64,000 bases of DNA from Sorex araneus (Eukaryota; Chordata; Mammalia; Eulipotyphla; Soricidae). The translations under genes were made by a program, and so were the position numbers. The notes below the pieces were generated by a model, which was given only the letters and a program-made list of their open reading frames with translations, searched no databases and was not told where the DNA came from. The DNA lies in NCBI RefSeq assembly GCF_027595985.1, contig NC_073313.1, positions 84,860,899 through 84,924,898 of the forward strand, given 5' to 3'. This document shows, piece by piece, positions 10,316 to 55,212 of this stretch; within the stretch, counting starts at the first letter, position 1, and every line of letters begins with the position of its first letter.

Positions 10316-10410
10316 GGAGGAACCCTAAAATTACGTATATAATGAAACCAGTTATGCTTGATATGTTTTATGCTTCAAAGATGTTTGGTTTTGTTTTCTG
10401 AAAACAGTGT

Positions 10411-10787
<377 letters not shown>

Positions 10788-10796
10788 ATCCAAGTC

Positions 10797-11726
10797 ATGG
10801 CTAGAATTGAAGATGAAAACATGACTCAAATTTCTGAATTTATCCTTTTGGGTTTTGGGAATCTCTATGGCTTTCAGTTTCTTCTTTTTGGAATATTTCT
10901 GGTCATCTATGTGATGACTCTCATGGGCAACATTGTAATTCTAATTGTGGTGTCATCTGATCGCTCTCTTCACACTCCCATGTATTTCTTTCTTGGCCAC
11001 TTCTCATTCCTAGAGATTAGTTACACTACAACAATAGAGCCTATGATGCTGAGAACATTGTTATCAGCTCACGTCCCTATTTCCTTCCCAAGTTGTGCTT
11101 GCCAGTTTTATTTTTTTGCTTCTCTGGTGGCTACAGAATGCTTCTTCCTGGCTGTTATGTCTTATGATCGCTACATTGCTATCTGTAACCCATTGCACTA
11201 CTCCAGCATCATGGATCATGGTGGTTGCTTACAGCTAGCTAGTGCTTCTTGGGTGGCTGGGTTTCTAGCACCCATCATTCTCATGGTCCTGATTTTCAGA
11301 TTAACATTCTGTGTAGCCAATGAGATTGATCACTTCTTCTGTGATTTGAAGCCAATCATGAAGCTAGCCTGTACAGATACTCAAGTAGCTGAGATGGCTT
11401 CTTTTATATGCACCTCACTATTTGCCCTAGGCCCCTTCCTACTAACTCTGGCTTCTTATACACACATCATCTCCACCATTCTGAGAATTCCCTCAACCAC
11501 AGGGAAGCAGAAGGCTTTTTCAACCTGTTCCTCCCACCTAACAGTGGTCAGTCTGTATTATGGGACATTAGGTATTGTCTATGGTTTCCCATCAGGGCCT
11601 GAGTATGAACACTTACTAAAGTTGCTTTCTCTACTTTATACAGTATTTACTCCTGCCCTCAATCCTATTATTTATACCTTAAGGAACAAGGATGTAAAAG
11701 TAGCCCTGAGAAAATTGGTGCAATGA
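10797..11726 (+). CDS. Olfactory receptor, class II, 309 aa
   Basis: Seven-transmembrane odorant receptor of the rhodopsin-like GPCR family, expected in the cilia of olfactory neurons where it signals through Golf. It is a complete frame of normal family length. Residues 8-10 (NMT) form an N-glycosylation sequon before the first membrane segment, which supports the first ATG over Met9. Visible hallmarks are GN at 44-45 (TM1), LHTPMYFFL 58-66, MSYDRYIAIC 121-130 (end of TM3), SY at 220-221 (TM5), KAFSTCSSH 239-247 (TM6) and NPIIYTLRN 289-297 (TM7). Cys100 and Cys182 are placed for the conserved disulfide. The start has G at -3 and +4. No disrupting lesion is seen, so the gene is probably functional. 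The wording (TECFFLAVMSYDRY, FLEISY) is closest in my judgement to families 6 and 11, but I cannot assign a symbol. No other receptor gene lies in the window, so it is solitary at this scale. Confidence 0.95.
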   Translation: MARIEDENMTQISEFILLGFGNLYGFQFLLFGIFLVIYVMTLMGNIVILIVVSSDRSLHTPMYFFLGHFSFLEISYTTTIEPMMLRTLLSAHVPISFPSCACQFYFFASLVATECFFLAVMSYDRYIAICNPLHYSSIMDHGGCLQLASASWVAGFLAPIILMVLIFRLTFCVANEIDHFFCDLKPIMKLACTDTQVAEMASFICTSLFALGPFLLTLASYTHIISTILRIPSTTGKQKAFSTCSSHLTVVSLYYGTLGIVYGFPSGPEYEHLLKLLSLLYTVFTPALNPIIYTLRNKDVKVALRKLVQ

Positions 11727-21778: not shown

Positions 21779-21839
21779 GAGTAGCTGAATATTTAAAACA
21801 TACCCAAATTCTCTTTTACTCCTCATGTCAAAAATATGG

Positions 21840-24525
21840 TTCACTTGAATCACTTGTCATCCCATTGATCCTTGATTTGCTCGAGCGGGTGCCAGTAACA
21901 TCTCCAACTGTCACATGCTAGTGTAGCCCAATGATATCTGCTCACTCCAGGAACATGAAAAGTCTCAAATTGTTCATTCAGGGTTTTGACGAAGAAGTCT
22001 GACCATCTCATTGGTGGGCGGACACTCGGTCTTTTGACATACTGTGGAATCCAGTCTGTAACAGCTCTAGTCCAGCAGTCATCTCTGAGCCATATTACTA
22101 GTCCGGCCCATCTAATTTTTGACGCCTTGGCAAATGAGACAGCATCCCCGATTCTTCACCATGGATGGAGGTCGGAATTCCGGATTCCTTCTCTCACTTG
22201 AGAGGAAAAGTGATACTCCTAGCATGACTCTTTCCATTCCTCTTTGGGATACCCGAATAGCGTTCTCATCCTATTTGCATAGGGCCCAGGTCTCTGAGGC
22301 ATATGTTAGCACGGGAAGAATGGTGGAGTTGAAAAGATGTGCCCAGAGCCAGAGGTTCTTCATCCTCTTAACCACTTCATCGATGCTCTTGAAGGGGTTC
22401 CATGCTGCTCTCTCCCTCCTGCACAGTTGTGATGCCAAGTCATTCCTCATGTTGAGTTCTCGACCTAGGTACACATAGCTGCATTAGGAGATGTTCTTTC
22501 CATTGAGAGCAAATGGAACATCAGGGACCAGTTCATTTTTCATGAACATTGTCTTGGTGAGATTCAGCTGCAGTCCAACCTTTCCACACTTGAGGTCAAA
22601 GTCAGCAAGCATTTGTGACGCTTGGCTAATATTTGGTGTTATGAGAATGATGTCATCAGCGAAGTGGAGGTGGTGTAGTTGCCGATTGTCTGTCATCACT
22701 CCCATTGCTTCCCATTCCAGTCATCATATGACATTCTTGAGAGTGGCACTGAAGAGTTTCAGTGAAATGGCATCACCCTGCCGAATCCTCTCTTTACGTC
22801 AATGGTCACTTCCTTGTAGAATGGTGAGATCCTGGTGGTGAATCCATAATACAGCTTGCGGGAGATCTTGATGTACTGAGTTTAAATGCTCTGTTTTGCT
22901 AGGGCTTCAACAACCGCTTCAGTCTCAACAGAATCGAAGGCCTTCTTTAAATGGATGAACGTTAGACAGAGAGGCATCTTGAACTCTTGCAGAACTTGGA
23001 TGAATTTTGTCACCTTGTGGATATGGTCAATTGTGCTGAATACTCTTCGGAACCCGGCTTGCCTACATGGTTGTCCTTTGTCTAGTGTTCTGCCTATTCT
23101 ATTCAGGATTACTTGAGTGAACAACTTGTAGACGACAGACAGCAGGCAGATTGGGCGATAGTTGCCGATGTCGTGGATGTCTCCCTTCTTGTACAACAGA
23201 GCGGTCCTGCTGGTTTTCCACTAAGATGGAACCTTGCATTCAGACAGGTGACATGTGAAGAGCCGAGCCGGTGTATTGATGAGTACTGGTGGCAGATTCT
23301 TCAGGTGTTCGGGTCTGACCTTGTCTGGACTGGGTGCTGTGTGCATCTTTATGGACAAAATGGCATGTCGGATTTCAAAAGGGAGGATATTGGGAATAAC
23401 ATATCCATACTGCAGAATTTGGTATGTGGGCAGTTGAACGTGGCTGTCAAAGATCTGAGTAGAAGTCATGAATAATCCTCTCCATTGCCCTTCTAAAAGA
23501 TGTGATAGATCCATCAGGACGTCTGAGGACAGTCATCTTGGTCTTGTAGTTGGCGAAGGACAGGTGAGCGTTGTGAATACTTTTCCCCGCTTCTGCCGTA
23601 TTAGCCAACACTGATGCTCTTCTCTCTTTGAGGTCTTCCTTTATCACTTCTCTGCACAGCTTTGCGAGCTCAGACGTTAGCTTGTGGTTGCCTGAGGCTC
23701 GTGCCAAACCACATTGGTGAATGAGCTCAAGAGTTTCCGAAGACAAGCATCTGTTTTTGGCTTTACCACTCTCAGCATTTTTTGCACAATCATGGAGTTG
23801 CTGAAACAGACAATCGTATTCCTCGTTGATGTTGTCAATGATGGCATCTTCCCACGTTGTCGCAATAGTGTCAAAGAAGTCCCAATTGGTGGTCATTCTG
23901 GGTGTTCTCTTCTTAAATTTAAACTTTCCAGTCCCTTCTCACTTTGTGAATTAGAATTTTGCATGAAGGAGATGGTGGTCAGATCCCGTTTGGAATTTTG
24001 GGACAACAGCTACATCAGTCAGGTAAAACCTTCGATTTTATATGATGTGGTCAACTTCATTGTGGAACTGTCCCCCAGGAGACTCCCATGTCCAACATTT
24101 AGATTCGACCTTATGGAACTATGAGTTGCCATGGATGGTCTTGGTCGACATGAAGAACTCAGACTGTCTCTCACCCTGATCGTTCCATTCTAGGCCATGG
24201 GACCCAATGTGGAGTTCTTCGGGTGACCTTCTCCGTCCTATATTGACATTAAAATCACCAACAATGGTCTTGTAGAAGGTGTGGTCTTCTTTATAGAACT
24301 TCTGTAGCTCCATGTAGAACTTCTCAATTTCTTCTTCATCATAGTTGGATGTTGGTGCGTAGATGACGAACATAGAATCTGCTGGCAGTGAGCCACATCT
24401 ATTCAAGCGTAATTGTCCGAATTACGGGTTGTTAGGCATTTGAATGAATCAATGCTCATGGCAAATTTCATGTTGACAAGGACATCGACACCACCAACGC
24501 CTCTGTTGTCACATGTTCCATAGAA
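21840..24525 (-). mobile_element. RTE-clade LINE, 5'-truncated and inactive
   Basis: A non-LTR retrotransposon encoding, on the minus strand, an endonuclease-reverse transcriptase broken by stops and frameshifts. Order: endonuclease piece 24119-24406 (FVIYAPTSN, GDFNVNIGR); linker 23447-23896; RT start 23221-23514 (APSPDKVRPEHLK); RT core 22882-23196 (GNYRPICLLS, STIDHIHKV, AFDSVE); RT motif C 22484-22705 (LHFADDIILIT); 22271-22474 (LPVLTYASETWAL); C-terminal domain about 22140-21850 (RPPMRWSDFFVKTL, then WHPLEQIKDQWDDK) ending at TGA 21852-21850. Motif A reads FIHLKKAFD, with His for the catalytic Asp (codon at 22953-22951). The first endonuclease residues are missing. The 3' UTR is nearly absent, the RTE habit. 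The domain wording is RTE rather than L1 or L2. Confidence 0.88.
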
Positions 24526-25015
24526 TATGATTAAAGTAACATGATTAAAATATGATTAAAGTAACAAAATGGTAGATTTACACCCAAGAATGGTAGAGAT
24601 GAGTACCAGGAGGACTGCTCCATGGCTTGGAAGCCAGCCTCACATGCAGGGGGAAAAGGCAGTTCAGAGAAGGGACCACCAAAAAGGGTTCTTGGAGGGC
24701 CCTCTCGGGAAGGAAGATGTGAACTGAAAGTAGACTAGAGCTAACATGATGGCCACTCAATACCTATATTGAAAACCACAGCACCCAAAAGGATAGAGAA
24801 AGCAAAAGGGAGTGCCCTTCCACAGAGGCAGAGTGGAATGGTGGGGATGAGGTAGGTTGGTGGGAGGAATACTGGGATCATTGGTGGTGGATAATCGGCA
24901 ATGGTGGAGGGATAGGTACTCAATCATTGTATGAATGAAACGTAAGCACAAAAGTTTGTAAGTCTGTAACTGTACCTCACGGTGATTCATTTAAAAATTT
25001 TTAAAGAATTTAAAA
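24526..25015 (+). mobile_element. LINE-1 3' UTR
   Basis: Plus-sense 3' UTR (gtaccaggaggactgctcca, then ggcaatggtggagggatagg) with an A-rich end. A 14-base unit atgattaaagtaac is duplicated at its 5' edge, next to the RTE element. Confidence 0.8.
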
Positions 25016-25309: not shown

Positions 25310-26290
25310 TATTAGTCTAATACTATGCTTTTTAATATCCTACAAATAAAAGCAATCATTCTATTTCTGTCCCTCTCCTTCTGAATTATTTCACTCAGCA
25401 TGATCCACTCCATATTCATCTATTTATAAGCAAATTTAATGACTTTGTTTTTACTGGTGGCTGCCAGGAGAATTAGTACACTGTCAAAAGCTAGGCAAAA
25501 GTATAGAAAGGCAGTTAGAATTGAGAAGGGACCACTATGACCATGATAGTTAGAAATAATCACTCTGGACAAGAGTTGAGTGCTGAAATTAGGTAAAGAG
25601 AAAGAGGAGGAGGAGGAGGAGGAGGAGGAGGAGAAGGAGAAGAAGAACAAGAACAAGAAGAAGAACAAGAACAAGAACAACAAGAATAAGAACAAGAACA
25701 AGAAGAACAAGAACAAGAAGAACAAGAACAAGAACAAGAACAAGAACAAGAAGGTGGAAGAGGAAGAGGAAGAGGAGGATGGGGAGGAGGAGGTAGAGGA
25801 GGAGGAGAAAGAGAAGGAAAAGAGGAAGAGGAAGAAGAAGAAGAAGAAGAAGAAGAAGAAGAAGAAGAAGAAGAAGAAGAAGAAGAAGAAGAAGAAGAAG
25901 AAGAAGAAGAAGAAGAAGAAGAAGAAGAAGAAGAAGAAGAAGAAGAAGAAGAAGAAGGAGAAGGAAAAGAGAAGTAGAAGGAGGAGAAGGAGAAGAAGAA
26001 GAAGGAGAAGGAGAAGAAGGAGGAGGAGGAGGAAGGAAGGAAGGAAGGAAGGAAGGAAGGAAGGAAGGAAGGAAGGAAGGAAGGAAGGAAGGAAGGAAGG
26101 AAGGAAGGAAGGAAGGAAGGAAGGAAGAAGAGGGCGGGGTGAGGAATGGGGTGGCGGCAGGAGAGAAACTGGTGGGAAATATACACTTGTGGAGGGATGG
26201 GTATTGGAACATCCCATGACTGAAGTCCAATGGTGAACAACTTTGTAACTGTGTATCTCACTGATTCAATAAAACATTAAAAATATATTG
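25310..26290 (+). mobile_element. LINE-1 3' end with 5' inversion and giant purine repeat
   Basis: Positions 25310-25450 are antisense ORF2 end. Positions 25455-25600 are sense proximal 3' UTR (gatcactctggacaaga-like). The purine microsatellite follows, then sense distal 3' UTR (26150-26290, gtggagggatgggtattgga) and the tail. The opposite orientation of the first piece indicates twin priming. Confidence 0.75.
25600..26128. repeat. 530-bp purine microsatellite (GAG, AAC/AAG, GAA, GGAA)
   Basis: Plus strand is almost all purine: (GAG)n, then AACAAG-type repeats with scattered C, then GAG/GAA mixtures. A nearly pure (GAA)n of about 126 bases follows (about 25830-25957), then (GGAA)n (about 26032-26128). 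It sits at the L1 3' UTR site where shorter GA runs occur in other copies. The long open frames on both strands are repeat artefacts. Confidence 0.95.
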
Positions 26291-26939
26291 TTGACAATAT
26301 CTAAAGAGTTCTAAATACAGAGATTACAGTTCTATTTCATATCTTCAAATCTTTGTATATTCCTCCCATATGTCCTAGAGTATATGAATATATGAGATTC
26401 TCCTTGTTTGAATATGAAAAGGTCATTATAACATTGACAAGAACATATCTAAGGCACTAACACTTTGACAGTGACAAGCAGCATTAACTACCAGATATAA
26501 GTGTCAAGATGCCTCTATATGATCCTATTTTCTAATGGTCTACTCCCTCTAGCCAAATGTTTCTGAGATGAAAACCCAAACATTGCGAAGTAGAGACAAG
26601 CCATTCCCTTTGTTATAGGTCCAAATTTCTGGCCCAGAATATCCATAATCATAGATTAATTATTTTTTCCTGCTAATTCTCTGGATGAAAGAACAGTAGC
26701 TAGAATAATGACCAAAGAAAACGTTATTTTAGCAAAAATGGCAGTTTAAAAAATCTACCTAATAGGATTATGAGATAATGTGATAATGCTGATCCTGGTT
26801 TTTAAAATATATTATTCCACTTAATACATTGCTACACCAACTTCAAGATATATTTCTCTGAATAAAAGTTTCCCTTAGCCTATAATCATAAGGGCACTTC
26901 TTCGATTTGCCTCCTACCATTTATGAGGAGAATATCCTT
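26291..26939. other. No gene seen
   Basis: Unique-looking AT-rich DNA. No coding frame or repeat recognised. Confidence 0.5.
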
Positions 26940-26948
26940 ATAGTTGTT

Positions 26949-27202
26949 ACAAGGGCTGGAGCAATATTACAGCGGGTAGAGGGTGTTTGCCTTGCAAGCA
27001 GCTGACCCGGGCTCGATTCCTTCATCCCTCTCAGAGAGCCCAGCGAGCTACTGAGAGTATCCCGCCTGAATGGCAGAGACTGGCAAGCTCCCTGTGGCAT
27101 ATTCAATATGCCAAAAACAGTAACAAGTCTCACAATGGAGACGTCACTGGTGCCCACTCGAGAAAATCGATGAACAACGGGTCAACAGTGTTACAGTGCT
27201 AC
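26949..27202 (+). mobile_element. SINE with RTE-type tail (type B), full length
   Basis: tRNA-like head (gggctggagcaatattacag, B box-like gctcgattcc), body (gccaaaaacagtaacaagtc) and tail ending gtgttacagtgctac. It is flanked by atagttgtt at 26940-26948 and 27203-27211. Confidence 0.9.
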
Positions 27203-27388
27203 ATAGTTGTTTCATAAGTTCTCCCTCCCCAAGGTTCTTAGTCATCTGTGCTGTTCTGTTTGATTCAACTTAATCTATGCCTTCACCAGATTCATCAATA
27301 ACATTCCATACCTTCATTTCCTGAAGTCTCCTTCATACAGATGAAAACACATGTAGTGACAATAGTATAATGAGGAAGCAGTAGTATC

Positions 27389-28084
27389 ACTGTATCACTG
27401 TCATCCCATTGTTCATCATTTACTCGAATGGGTGCCAGTAACATCTCCATTTGTCCCAGCCCTGAGATTTTAGCAGCTTGTCCTTACTCATCTTTCCCAA
27501 CGATTGGAGGCTTCTTTCAGGGTCAGGGGAATGAAACCTGTTATTGTTACTGTTTTTGACATATCAAATACACCACATGGAGCTTGCCAGGCTCTGCCAT
27601 GCGGGCAGGATACTTTGGGTAGCTTGCCGGGCTCTCTGAGAGGCAATTATATTTATTTCCCTCTATGATGATGTTCAGAAATATGTTCACTCATGTGTGA
27701 GGCTCGGCCAGTGTGTGTGGAAAGTGGCCTGGAGCATTGTGGCTGTTGGGTAGTGGAGGTCAGCTGCTGGGGCTGCCTCCCTTGGGATGGAGAGGGCTCT
27801 CATACCCCACTCTGGGGCGCCCCGAGTGAAAACAGCCTGGCTCGGAGTCTGGTGACATGATTATTAGGGCCTCATTTTATGCTCTCTTCCAAGAGAAGCT
27901 GTGAGTGCTAGAGGGTGGCCAGTGAGGAGATTATCTGGCACCAGTAGGAGGTGGCTTACGGGTGTGACCTCTGGGTTGCCAGAGACTGGGGGAAGCAGGT
28001 AGAGAATCTCTGCTCCTCTGCTCCTGGGTCCCATTGAGACCAGAGTCAAAGATCACAAAGTTCTGCAATACCGTAGTATATCAC
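27389..28084 (-). mobile_element. Composite retroelement E1 with RTE-type tail
   Basis: One minus-strand insertion of 696 bp, flanked by agtataatgaggaagcag- and -aagtag-type repeats 25 bp long with one mismatch (27364-27388 and 28085-28109). In its own 5' to 3' order it has four modules. They are an LTR-leader-like module (28084 to about 27860), a GC-rich module (about 27850-27717), a SINE body without tRNA head (about 27650-27450), and the RTE-type tail (27450-27389). The body is type C, carrying the extra ccaatcgttgggaaaga block. No open frame, so non-autonomous. Confidence 0.75.
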
Positions 28085-28099
28085 AGTATAATGAGGAAG

Positions 28100-28321
28100 T
28101 AGTAGTATCCATAATAATAACCTATGAGTTTTTACTATTTTCCAGTGTGAAAATATCCTACATAAATTTGTGATATCTTTACAGAAGTCATATGAAATAG
28201 ACACTGATATTATCATCAATTTTACACATGAAAAAATTAAGAATTACGGAGAGTAGAATACAAAAATCTCACTGCTATCCATTTGTAGCATTCAGATCTA
28301 TCTGACTCTAAAGCTTAGTAT
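28100..28321 (-). mobile_element. MIR fossil hit by two composite elements
   Basis: Antisense MIR wording (ttaattttttcatgtg-type core in complement, then agatctatctgactctaaag). E1 lies at its left edge and E2 at its right edge. Confidence 0.6.
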
Positions 28322-28805
28322 TGCTGTATTACTGTATCATTGTCATCCCTTTGTTCGTCGATTTACTCGAGTGGGCACCGTTAATGTCTCTATTCCTCAC
28401 AGCCCTGAGATTTTAGCAGCTTTTCCTTACTCGTCTTTCCCAACGATTGGAGGCTCTTTCAGGGTGAGGGCAATGATTACTCTTTTTGGCATATTGAATA
28501 TATATATATGTATATATATATATTGCAATGTAGCACTGCAGTCCTGTTGTAAATCGATTTGCTTGAGCAGGCAACAGTGATGTCTCCATTGTGAGACTTG
28601 TTGTTACTATTTTTGGCATATCTCTATGATTTGTTGACTACTAATAGAAAATGGGTAGGAAGTGTCCGGAAAGTGGCCTGGAGCGTGGCGGTGGTTGGGT
28701 AGTGGAGGTTGGCTCCCAGGTCTGGGTCCCCTGGGGTGGGGATGGTTCTCACCCACCCCCCTCTGGGGCTCCCAGAGTGAAAACAGCCCAACACTGAGTA
28801 TATGA
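28322..28805 (-). mobile_element. Composite retroelement E2 with RTE-type tail
   Basis: Flanked by aaagcttagtat at 28310-28321 and 28806-28817. In element order it has a GC-rich module (28795-28664), related at roughly three of four positions to that of E1. Next come a 5'-truncated type B SINE (28621-28527) and a (TA)n run, then a type C body and RTE-type tail (28498-28322). The internal type B piece may be a nested insertion or a dimer. E2 lacks the LTR-like module of E1. Confidence 0.7.
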
Positions 28806-28959
28806 AAAGCTTAGTATATGAACACACATTCACATAAATAGACTGGTTTTCCTAGAGATTCAAAGCTCTTTATTTTAACAGAAAAAGAAAAGCCACACTT
28901 ATCTGAAATTTAAAGATATTTCCATTGATATCTTAATTTAATGGAGGGAGGGATGCTTT

Positions 28960-42589: not shown

Positions 42590-42960
42590 TGTATGCAGTA
42601 GCTTTATAAAAGTTATTTTAAATTGACATTTGATTTACAAAGATGTTGACAATCGTTTTAGGCATACAAGTTTCCATCTCTGATCCCATCAGTGTCAACA
42701 GTGATTCCAGGTTTCCTCCCACTCCCAACTTGTTTCCTTGACAAAGAAAAAATTTGAAGTCAAATTATTGTAGTTTGCATTCCAAACTTACAGTAATGTT
42801 GCCTCTAGTAGTTTAGATATGTACAGATACTTTATCTCAAAACCACAGAGGCTCCCAAGGCCCCTGACCCTTACTCCATGTTACCTCCAGACTGATTCAC
42901 CTTGCTTCCCCCTCCCTTTCTTTTTTTTGCCAGGCATTTTAATTTCATAATATAGAGCCT
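42590..42960 (-). mobile_element. Old LINE-1 3' UTR, minus strand
   Basis: Antisense remnant: gacatttgatttacaaagat, tctgatcccatcagtgtcaa. Diverged. Confidence 0.55.
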
Positions 42961-42964
42961 AAGT

Positions 42965-43160
42965 ACAAATATTGGTGTACTTGATATGCCAAAAACAGTA
43001 ACAACGATGTTCCTCATTCTCCTGATCATGAAAGAGCCCCCAATATGCCATGGGGTACACTAGCACAGAACAGGGACTAATGAGGACATTACTGTCACCC
43101 ACTTGAACAAATCGATGAACACTAGGATAACAGTGATATAGTGATAAAGTGAATATAGAG
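42965..43160 (+). mobile_element. RTE-tail SINE, type C/D variant, 5'-truncated
   Basis: Begins gtgtacttgatatgccaaaa, has catgaaagagcccccaatat, a ggggtacactagcac piece reminiscent of the longest (type D) tail, and ends in a repeated gtgatatagtgata. Confidence 0.75.
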
Positions 43161-50017: not shown

Positions 50018-50225
50018 ACGGGCAGAGCCTGGCAAGCTACCCATGACGTATTCAATATGCCAAGACAGTAACAATAGGTCTCATTCCCCTGGCACTGAAA
50101 GAGTCTCCAATCATTGGGAAAGACAAGTAAGGAGAGGCTGCTAAAATCTCAGGACTGGGGGGAATAGAGATGTTACTGGTGCCCACTCGAGTAAATTAAA
50201 GAACAACGGGATGACAGTGACAGTG
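50018..50225 (+). mobile_element. RTE-tail SINE, type C, 5'-truncated
   Basis: Begins in the body (acgggcagagcctggcaagc), contains the type C block and ends gggatgacagtgacagtg. It is flanked by attctgtatctgt at 50005-50017 and 50226-50238, a perfect 13-bp duplication. This proves the RTE-type end is the true 3' end of the insertion. Confidence 0.93.
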
Positions 50226-54543: not shown

Positions 54544-54557
54544 AAATTATATATACT

Positions 54558-55212
54558 GTATCACTGTCATCTCGTTGTTCATTAATTTGCTCGAGTGGGC
54601 ACAGGAATGTCTCCATTCATCCCTGTCACATGCTAGTGTAGCCCAATAGCATCTGCTTGCTCCGGGAACACAAAGAGCCTGAGATTTTAGCAGCCTCTCC
54701 TTACTCGTCCTTCCCAATGCTACCGCATTGGCAGCTCTTTCAGGGTCAGGGGAATGAGGCCCGTTATTGTTACTGTTTTTGGTATATCAGATACGTCAAG
54801 AGTAGCTTGCCTGGCTCTGCCTTGTGGGCAGGATACTCTTAGTAGCTTGCCGGGTTCTCCGAGAGGAAAAACTGCGTCACTCTCTTCAGGGAACTTTGTT
54901 TTATGGTCTCTGGATGTTGGCCATTGATGAGATTACATGGCGCCAGGGGCAGTTTGTGGGTGTGTGTAAAAATATATACAAGTGCTTGGAAGGGTGATGT
55001 GTATTGTTCACAGGCTCTCAGTGCAGCTCTCTCGCCACCCGCATTCTGTGCTCTCGAGCAGCTGTGTGTGGACTCGATTGGGATGGCTGTTGGCAATGGG
55101 CAGGCGAAAGAAGAACATGGACCAAGCTGGTTGCTGATTAGTTCCTTTTCACTCAGTCTCTCGTCTCTCCCATCTCACACACTCTTCCTTCCTAGTTCCC
55201 AGATTTCTTGAT
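54558..55212 (-). mobile_element. Composite retroelement E3: LTR-like head plus RTE-tail SINE
   Basis: In element order it has an LTR-like module (55212 to about 54875), a SINE body without tRNA head, the type C block, and the longest RTE-type tail (type D, 54690-54558). The LTR-like module contains the complement of accaagctggttgctgatt at 55121-55139, also found in sense at 63438-63456. The tail shares a 20-base identical word with the RTE element. A weak duplication (aaattatatatac at about 54545-54557, taagtacatatac at about 55213-55225) is possible. The GC-rich module of E1 and E2 is absent. Confidence 0.65.

Follow-up and report, generated by a model that had tools for sequence, protein, structure and literature searches.

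A candidate composite retrotransposon family with an RTE-type tail in the common shrew

Introduction

The locus described here raises the question of what kind of mobile element joins a leader-like and GC-rich 5' part to an RTE-type tail, and how such a combination came to move. The element, E1, occupies positions 27389-28084 of a 64,000-nucleotide stretch, called the window, of the genome of the common shrew (Sorex araneus). The original prediction described E1 as LTR-like and GC-rich modules fused to an RTE-type SINE tail and moved as one unit. The present analysis leads to the reading, held with a probability of about 0.7, that E1 is a copy of a large, interspersed, non-autonomous composite retrotransposon family of the shrew.

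Boundaries, strand and modules of E1

The flanks of E1 form a direct repeat in which 24 of 25 positions are identical. None of 300 shuffles reached the score of this repeat, which upholds the predicted 25-bp duplication. In a self-comparison of the window, most of 27389-27643 corresponded to the body and tail of tRNA-headed SINEs, antisense on the plus strand. Because the RTE-type tail lies at the low-coordinate end, E1 is placed on the minus strand. In the sense direction, the modules follow one another as leader, mid segment, GC-rich part, linker, body, and tail (Table 1). The body of the tRNA-headed SINEs corresponds to the first part of the E1 body. The 5'-most 12 bases of E1, which resemble a junction of tail and target, are probably filler.

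A tRNA head was expected to be absent from E1, and in the alignment with the tRNA-headed SINEs of the window this part is indeed missing. Motif tests are weak on this point: a strict B-box motif was found in 0 of 36 E1-family copies and in only three of six tRNA-headed SINEs, and an A-box-like motif was found in 31 of the 36 copies. An Rfam search of 26900-28900 gave 0 matches, and a tRNA-headed SINE lying in that stretch was likewise missed. Copies of the E1 family terminate in TGATACAG-like repeats and not in an L1-type poly(A) tail.

Table 1. Positions of E1, its modules and related elements (window coordinates, except for the two VAV3-like loci)
Feature	Position	Strand	Remarks
E1 target duplication, 5' side of element	28085..28109	.	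25 bp
E1 target duplication, 3' side of element	27364..27388	.	24/25 identical
E1 5'-most 12 bases	28073..28084	-	Without counterpart in the other scored copies, all of which end at query <=684
E1 leader	27918..28072	-	Opening part of the ~400-bp 5' monomer; ~0.76 ungapped identity to RTE LINE 5' UTR
E1 mid segment	27765..27917	-	Carries the CATAAAATGAGG motif; in the A-tailed family and two VAV3-exon loci; not found in 5' regions of 40 RTE LINE copies
E1 GC-rich end of monomer	27686..27764	-	
E1 linker	27644..27685	-	Contains CATAGAGGGAAATAA; motif in 32/36 E1 copies, 2/3 other loci, 0/40 RTE LINE copies
E1 body	27466..27643	-	Segment whose end in LINE copies lies ~32 bp before the start of the RTE ORF
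E1 tail	27389..27467	-	Final ~20 RTE ORF codons, then a tandem TGATACAG tail; overlap with the deletion junction
E2, second composite copy	28322..28805	-	GC-rich module and long RTE tail, SINE-tail piece inside; target duplication 28310-28321 / 28806-28817, 12/12
P, related element	54557..54971	-	Leader-like part, body, longer RTE ORF remnant with a different deletion junction
J, 5'-truncated relative	42959..43151	+	Yet another junction; flank repeat 10/10, shuffle fraction 0.02
L, 5'-truncated relative	50018..50225	+	E1-type junction; target duplication 13/13
tRNA-headed SINE	26949..27202	+	E1-like body and RTE tail; flank repeat 9/9, shuffle fraction 0.013
Broken, 5'-truncated RTE LINE copy	21839..24528	-	Kind of element that would have given rise to the E1 body and tail
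VAV3-like first exon downstream of E1 mid module, L098+L102	G000:C6:285618-286732		
VAV3-like first exon downstream of E1 mid module, L090	G000:C11:47453335-47453715		

The E1 family across the genome

E1 was used as a query against the genome (2.4 Gb), which gave 11,515 first-look candidates, a number that may include SINEs with the common body and tail. Forty were scored, and all of them aligned over 476-696 bases of the query and spanned the module joint. E1 itself matched at 100%, and the other 39 copies, which were retrieved together with their flanks, were 80-89% identical to it. Thirty-six copies, including E1, were nearly full length over the E1 span (sense position <=30 to >=685), and the remaining four start at sense positions 66-221. 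Many copies with the same joint and different flanks are thus found, as anticipated for an element moved as one unit. A SINE-tail piece is nested in E2 and in the L103-L089 locus, as might be expected if E1 were a chance nest of separate insertions; the joint common to 40 of 40 scored matches makes that explanation exceedingly improbable, and nested separate insertions were rejected on the strength of these genome copies.

A strict test for target duplications was passed by 9 of the 40 copies, E1 included, with lengths of 11-25 bp, the longest being that of E1. The other 31 copies failed; at least L025 and L031 did so because the element start had been placed too far downstream. An apparent inverted sequence, as from twin priming or fold-back, was seen at the 5' end of L008, L031, and L036.

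In 18 of the 40 copies, an extra 5'-truncated monomer lies directly upstream and ends at a nearly constant profile position. These extra monomers indicate that the 5' part of E1 is a tandem monomer of ~400 bp and that E1 was cut at a monomer edge. The "LTR-like" label of the original prediction was not sustained, as no LTR sign was found and the monomer is partly related to the 5' UTR of an RTE LINE. A fusion of an endogenous retrovirus LTR to an RTE tail would fit the TATA-like CATAAAATGAGG and the AATAAA, which stand in a plausible order, and the presence of the module ahead of unrelated sequences. However, the monomers are arranged head to tail in those 18 copies, 5' truncation occurs, and the duplications of the nine passing copies measure 11-25 bp and not 4-6 bp, so that a retroviral origin is improbable. 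With its 25-bp duplication and tandem monomers, E1 itself was rejected as an LTR retrotransposon or solo LTR.

The Kimura two-parameter distance to the family majority averaged 0.065, with 0.070 for E1, when CpG sites were excluded, and 0.104 and 0.115, respectively, when they were included; these values are biased low because the 36 copies were picked by similarity to E1. A Mantel test of 5' against 3' half distances in 36 copies gave no positive correlation (r -0.17), and a subfamily signal for joint movement of the halves is therefore absent. Viral contigs gave 0 matches for each of two tail/body patterns.

The body and tail are related to a resident RTE LINE

The window contains a broken RTE LINE copy in which RVT_1 was found when the copy was read through for the search. 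No Pfam match was obtained for the translations of four ORFs of the window, of which two are L1-like and two overlap the RTE region. A protein search with the LINE copy gave 497 matches, and the ten best among the 120 listed were 68-72% identical; two of these are unnamed, and eight come from Ancylostoma ceylanicum, Necator americanus, and Haemonchus contortus. The next matches were from Sorex fumeus (76% over 63% of the query) and Sorex araneus (72% over 57%). Horizontal transfer between nematodes and the common shrew has been reported for RTE1_Sar (PMC6542046), in a paper whose main text does not contain the word SINE. By its protein, the window copy fits this nematode-like type, and the name is used here by fit to that report.

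The RTE-type 3' end predicted for E1 was confirmed, since the tail consists of the last ~20 codons of the RTE ORF followed by tail repeats. When translated, the SINE tails and those of E1-type elements give, in decayed form, parts of the C-terminus of a Haemonchus protein, WRRYWRPLEEVDDQRDD, with 7 of 11 residues matching in E1 and 11 of 18 in SINE N.

LINE copies were collected with one Sorex protein, which gave 28,096 first-look candidates, of which 96 were scored; the 5' flanks of 40 of these, all among the best matches to that protein, were viewed. The body ends <=60 bp from the ATG in 26 of the 40 copies, and in seven the ATG was not located by the script. By the script rule, the leader is present in 14 copies. 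Local alignment, with a threshold of >1.2 x the null maximum, detected the leader in 15/40, the GC end in 18/40, the body in 31/40, and the mid segment in 0/40 of the 5' regions. The long monomer with the mid segment was also found in 0/40 by a profile test. Ahead of the ATG, LINE copies carry leader, GC part, and body in the order seen in E1, and a shorter version of the E1 5' module sits in the LINE 5' UTR.

The E1-type junction reads AAAATCTCAGGGCTGGGAC-AATGG. The corresponding parts of the LINE are AAAATCTC-GGGGACGAAC in the 5' UTR and GACAGGGAC-AATGG at the ORF end, and a short sequence is common to both sides at the break. On the sequence of these parts, the 3' portion of E1 is best read as two pieces of the resident RTE LINE from which nearly the whole ORF has been deleted. 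The "SINE tail" of the original prediction is accordingly right in its RTE type and wrong in its separate SINE origin; body and tail share one parent LINE, internally deleted.

Relatives and neighbours in the window

The window holds further composite and truncated relatives of E1 (Table 1). The score of the leader-like part of P was reached by 0 of 500 shuffles, and the 8-bp flank repeat of P was not significant (0.13). No target duplication was detected around copy I of the window. The junctions of P, J, and the SINEs differ from that of E1, which suggests that such deletions probably arose more than once. In both E2 and the L103+L089 locus elsewhere in the genome, the AT-rich stretch that follows the 5' module contains a short piece of RTE-SINE tail. 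The window also contains an open frame at 10788-11726, which by eye looks like an olfactory receptor gene, and long purine-rich microsatellites at 25580-26265 and 10352-10800.

The 5' module and its other partners

The mid segment alone, used as a genome query, gave 2,812 first-look candidates, of which 40 were scored. The sequence lying 250 to 630 bases downstream was retrieved for the best 20 among the 39 non-self matches. E1-type body/tail followed in nine, another monomer in one, and neither in ten. An RTE ORF was found downstream in 0 of the 20 sampled matches within the 381 bases retrieved.

Five of the ten loci with neither partner (L101+L095, L103+L089, L084, L094, and L096) form one family with an A-rich end, in which all ten pairs are 80-91% alike. 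Two others carry a VAV3-like first exon and are 80% alike, and the last three were left unassigned. A translated piece of 66 residues from L098 matches Vav-3 (E 1.6e-30). The VAV3-exon loci are apparently a multi-copy composite that has taken up part of a host gene.

In the A-tailed copy L101+L095, the module and the A-rich end are flanked by a 12-bp duplication; around L103+L089 a duplication was not found. The 3' end of this family resembles the A-tailed repeats of the window in a comparison made without a computed null, and the family would be moved by L1. A query with only the 3' part of the family yielded 2,807 first-look candidates, of which 40 were scored. With the entire 701-base unit as query, 8,713 candidates were obtained, and all 40 that were scored span both the module and the 3' part. 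Self aside, these matches are 82-87% identical, and 6/40 have a further module match nearby upstream. The presence of the 5' module in other families agrees with the SVA-like composite logic originally proposed.

E1 copies were compared with three non-E1 loci, a set that includes A-tailed loci and a VAV3 locus. In the mid segment, their similarity to these loci (0.858) is as high as that among the E1 copies themselves (0.853); one E1-LINE pairing out of 400 passed a loose filter for this segment (0.766). The GC end of E1 copies scored 0.802 against the non-E1 loci and 0.773 against LINE copies. For the leader, which only one A-tailed locus of the set contains, the values were 0.764 against that locus and 0.762 against LINE copies; the leader cannot tell the sources apart and does not favour fusion. 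The linker motif CATAGAGGGAAAT is present in 32/36 E1 copies, 2/3 other loci, and 0/40 LINE copies. The stretch CGCACCATATTTGAT occurs in 14/40 LINE copies, 2/3 other loci, and 0/36 E1 copies, which indicates that the LINE and the A-tailed elements have common parts absent from E1.

Origin and proposed mechanism

Two origins can be considered for E1. The likeliest is that a 5' module of the A-tailed type was fused to an internally deleted RTE at the AT-rich linker end. The sharing of the module among the families would then reflect fusion and not a common LINE ancestor. Alternatively, E1 may need no second source and may have come about, like Bov-A2 in ruminants, by internal deletion within an older subfamily of RTE1_Sar in which the 5' UTR contained the longer monomer. 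The order of leader, GC part, and body before the ATG of LINE copies speaks for such a deletion, as do the several junctions known (E1, P, J, and SINE types), the leader-like part and greater ORF remnant of P, and the equal nearness of the E1 leader to LINE copies and to the A-tailed locus. However, the mid segment (by the profile test) and the linker motif were found in none of the 40 LINE 5' regions, and no RTE ORF followed the mid segment in the 20 sampled matches. Because the mid segment was not found in the 40 LINE copies and is present in other families, plain deletion is treated as the main rival and not as the preferred origin, and it is considered rather unlikely. The 40-copy sample may have missed an RTE subfamily that carries the mid segment, and E1 would then be explained by internal deletion of the LINE alone.

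Under the preferred fusion origin, the E1 RNA would consist of one or more ~400-bp 5' monomers, a stretch of RTE1_Sar-type 5' UTR, and the last ~20 codons and tail repeats of the LINE. As a pol III head was not seen, transcription is assumed to start from the monomers, probably by pol II. The RTE tail would be recognised by the LINE reverse transcriptase and so recruit the RTE protein, and the LINE would copy the E1 RNA in trans by target-primed reverse transcription. Such a process would account for the duplications and the 5' truncation of the E1 family.

It can further be hypothesized, with the balance about even, that one 5' module of tandem monomers, carrying a probable promoter, is common to the RTE-tailed E1, the A-tailed composite, and the VAV3-exon copies, and in a shorter form the 5' UTR of the nematode-type LINE. 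In this view, a promoter module of the host may have been captured by a horizontally acquired LINE, and RTE-driven and L1-driven elements may exchange it. A comparison of the shared module across families would bear on the way in which a foreign LINE acquires a promoter once it is in a new host. The E1 family would be an example of new mobile elements assembled from parts. It also places the stages between a LINE and its SINEs side by side, namely the LINE, a headless deletion derivative, and a tRNA-headed SINE, and all three bear tails of the LINE type reported as a nematode-shrew horizontal transfer.

Comparison with known systems

Among the titles and opening lines of abstracts found in literature searches, none described the E1 family of the shrew, which, given its size, may well be catalogued in Repbase or Dfam. 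A LINE of the RTE1_Sar type would be the source of the E1 body and tail, and relatives of the leader and GC parts occur in its 5' UTR. Both body and tail match copies of an RTE for which strongylid nematode RTEs gave the closest proteins among the matches listed. In contrast to E1, RTE1_Sar is an autonomous LINE with an ORF, and the mid segment was not found in the 40 copies viewed.

Bov-A2, MAR4, RTESINE1, and RTE1-N1_LA are elements with an RTE or BovB 5' end according to a table in PMC3747384, whose main text mentions neither the shrew nor Sorex. By that table, and not by their sequences, they resemble E1 in combining pieces from both the 5' and the 3' end of a resident RTE LINE, in lacking a tRNA head, and in their RTE-type 3' end. 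E1 shares its 3' end with the resident RTE LINE; on the 5' side, its body matches the LINE, the leader and GC parts are related to it, and the mid segment and linker were not found in 40 copies. E1 differs from this kind in the extra mid segment and linker common to the A-tailed family, in its tandem ~400-bp monomers, and in its nematode-like parent of the RTE1_Sar type. The layout was first thought to be unlike any described family. This does not hold for the pairing of RTE 5' and 3' ends, which is already known from that table; what is unusual is one 5' module common to RTE-tailed and A-tailed families.

Bov-tA and Bov-A2 are described as RTE-dependent SINEs (PMC8620236). Bov-tA and the tRNA-headed SINEs of the window are similar to E1 in their RTE-derived 3' part, and the window SINEs also in their body. 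Unlike E1, they have a tRNA head, a shorter body, and another junction.

Mouse L1 carries tandem head-to-tail monomers in its 5' UTR, with variable 5' truncation. The E1 family has the same arrangement of head-to-tail 5' monomers and variable truncation, whereas its monomers stand on a non-autonomous, RTE-tailed element.

The hominoid composite retrotransposons with a VNTR (SVA, LAVA, PVA, and FVA) also share a module with different partners, including a part of a host gene, and are presumably moved in trans. In E1, modules of different families, which would have been joined by fusion, are likewise amplified as a unit. E1 differs from these elements in its RTE-type tail without poly(A), in its sister family with an A-rich tail, and in that an Alu-like part or VNTR was not seen. 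Judged by sequence, E1 is a composite that is SVA-like in its logic, RTE-tailed, and not LTR-based, and its family would represent a case of SVA-like module exchange, with an RTE tail, in a non-primate mammal.
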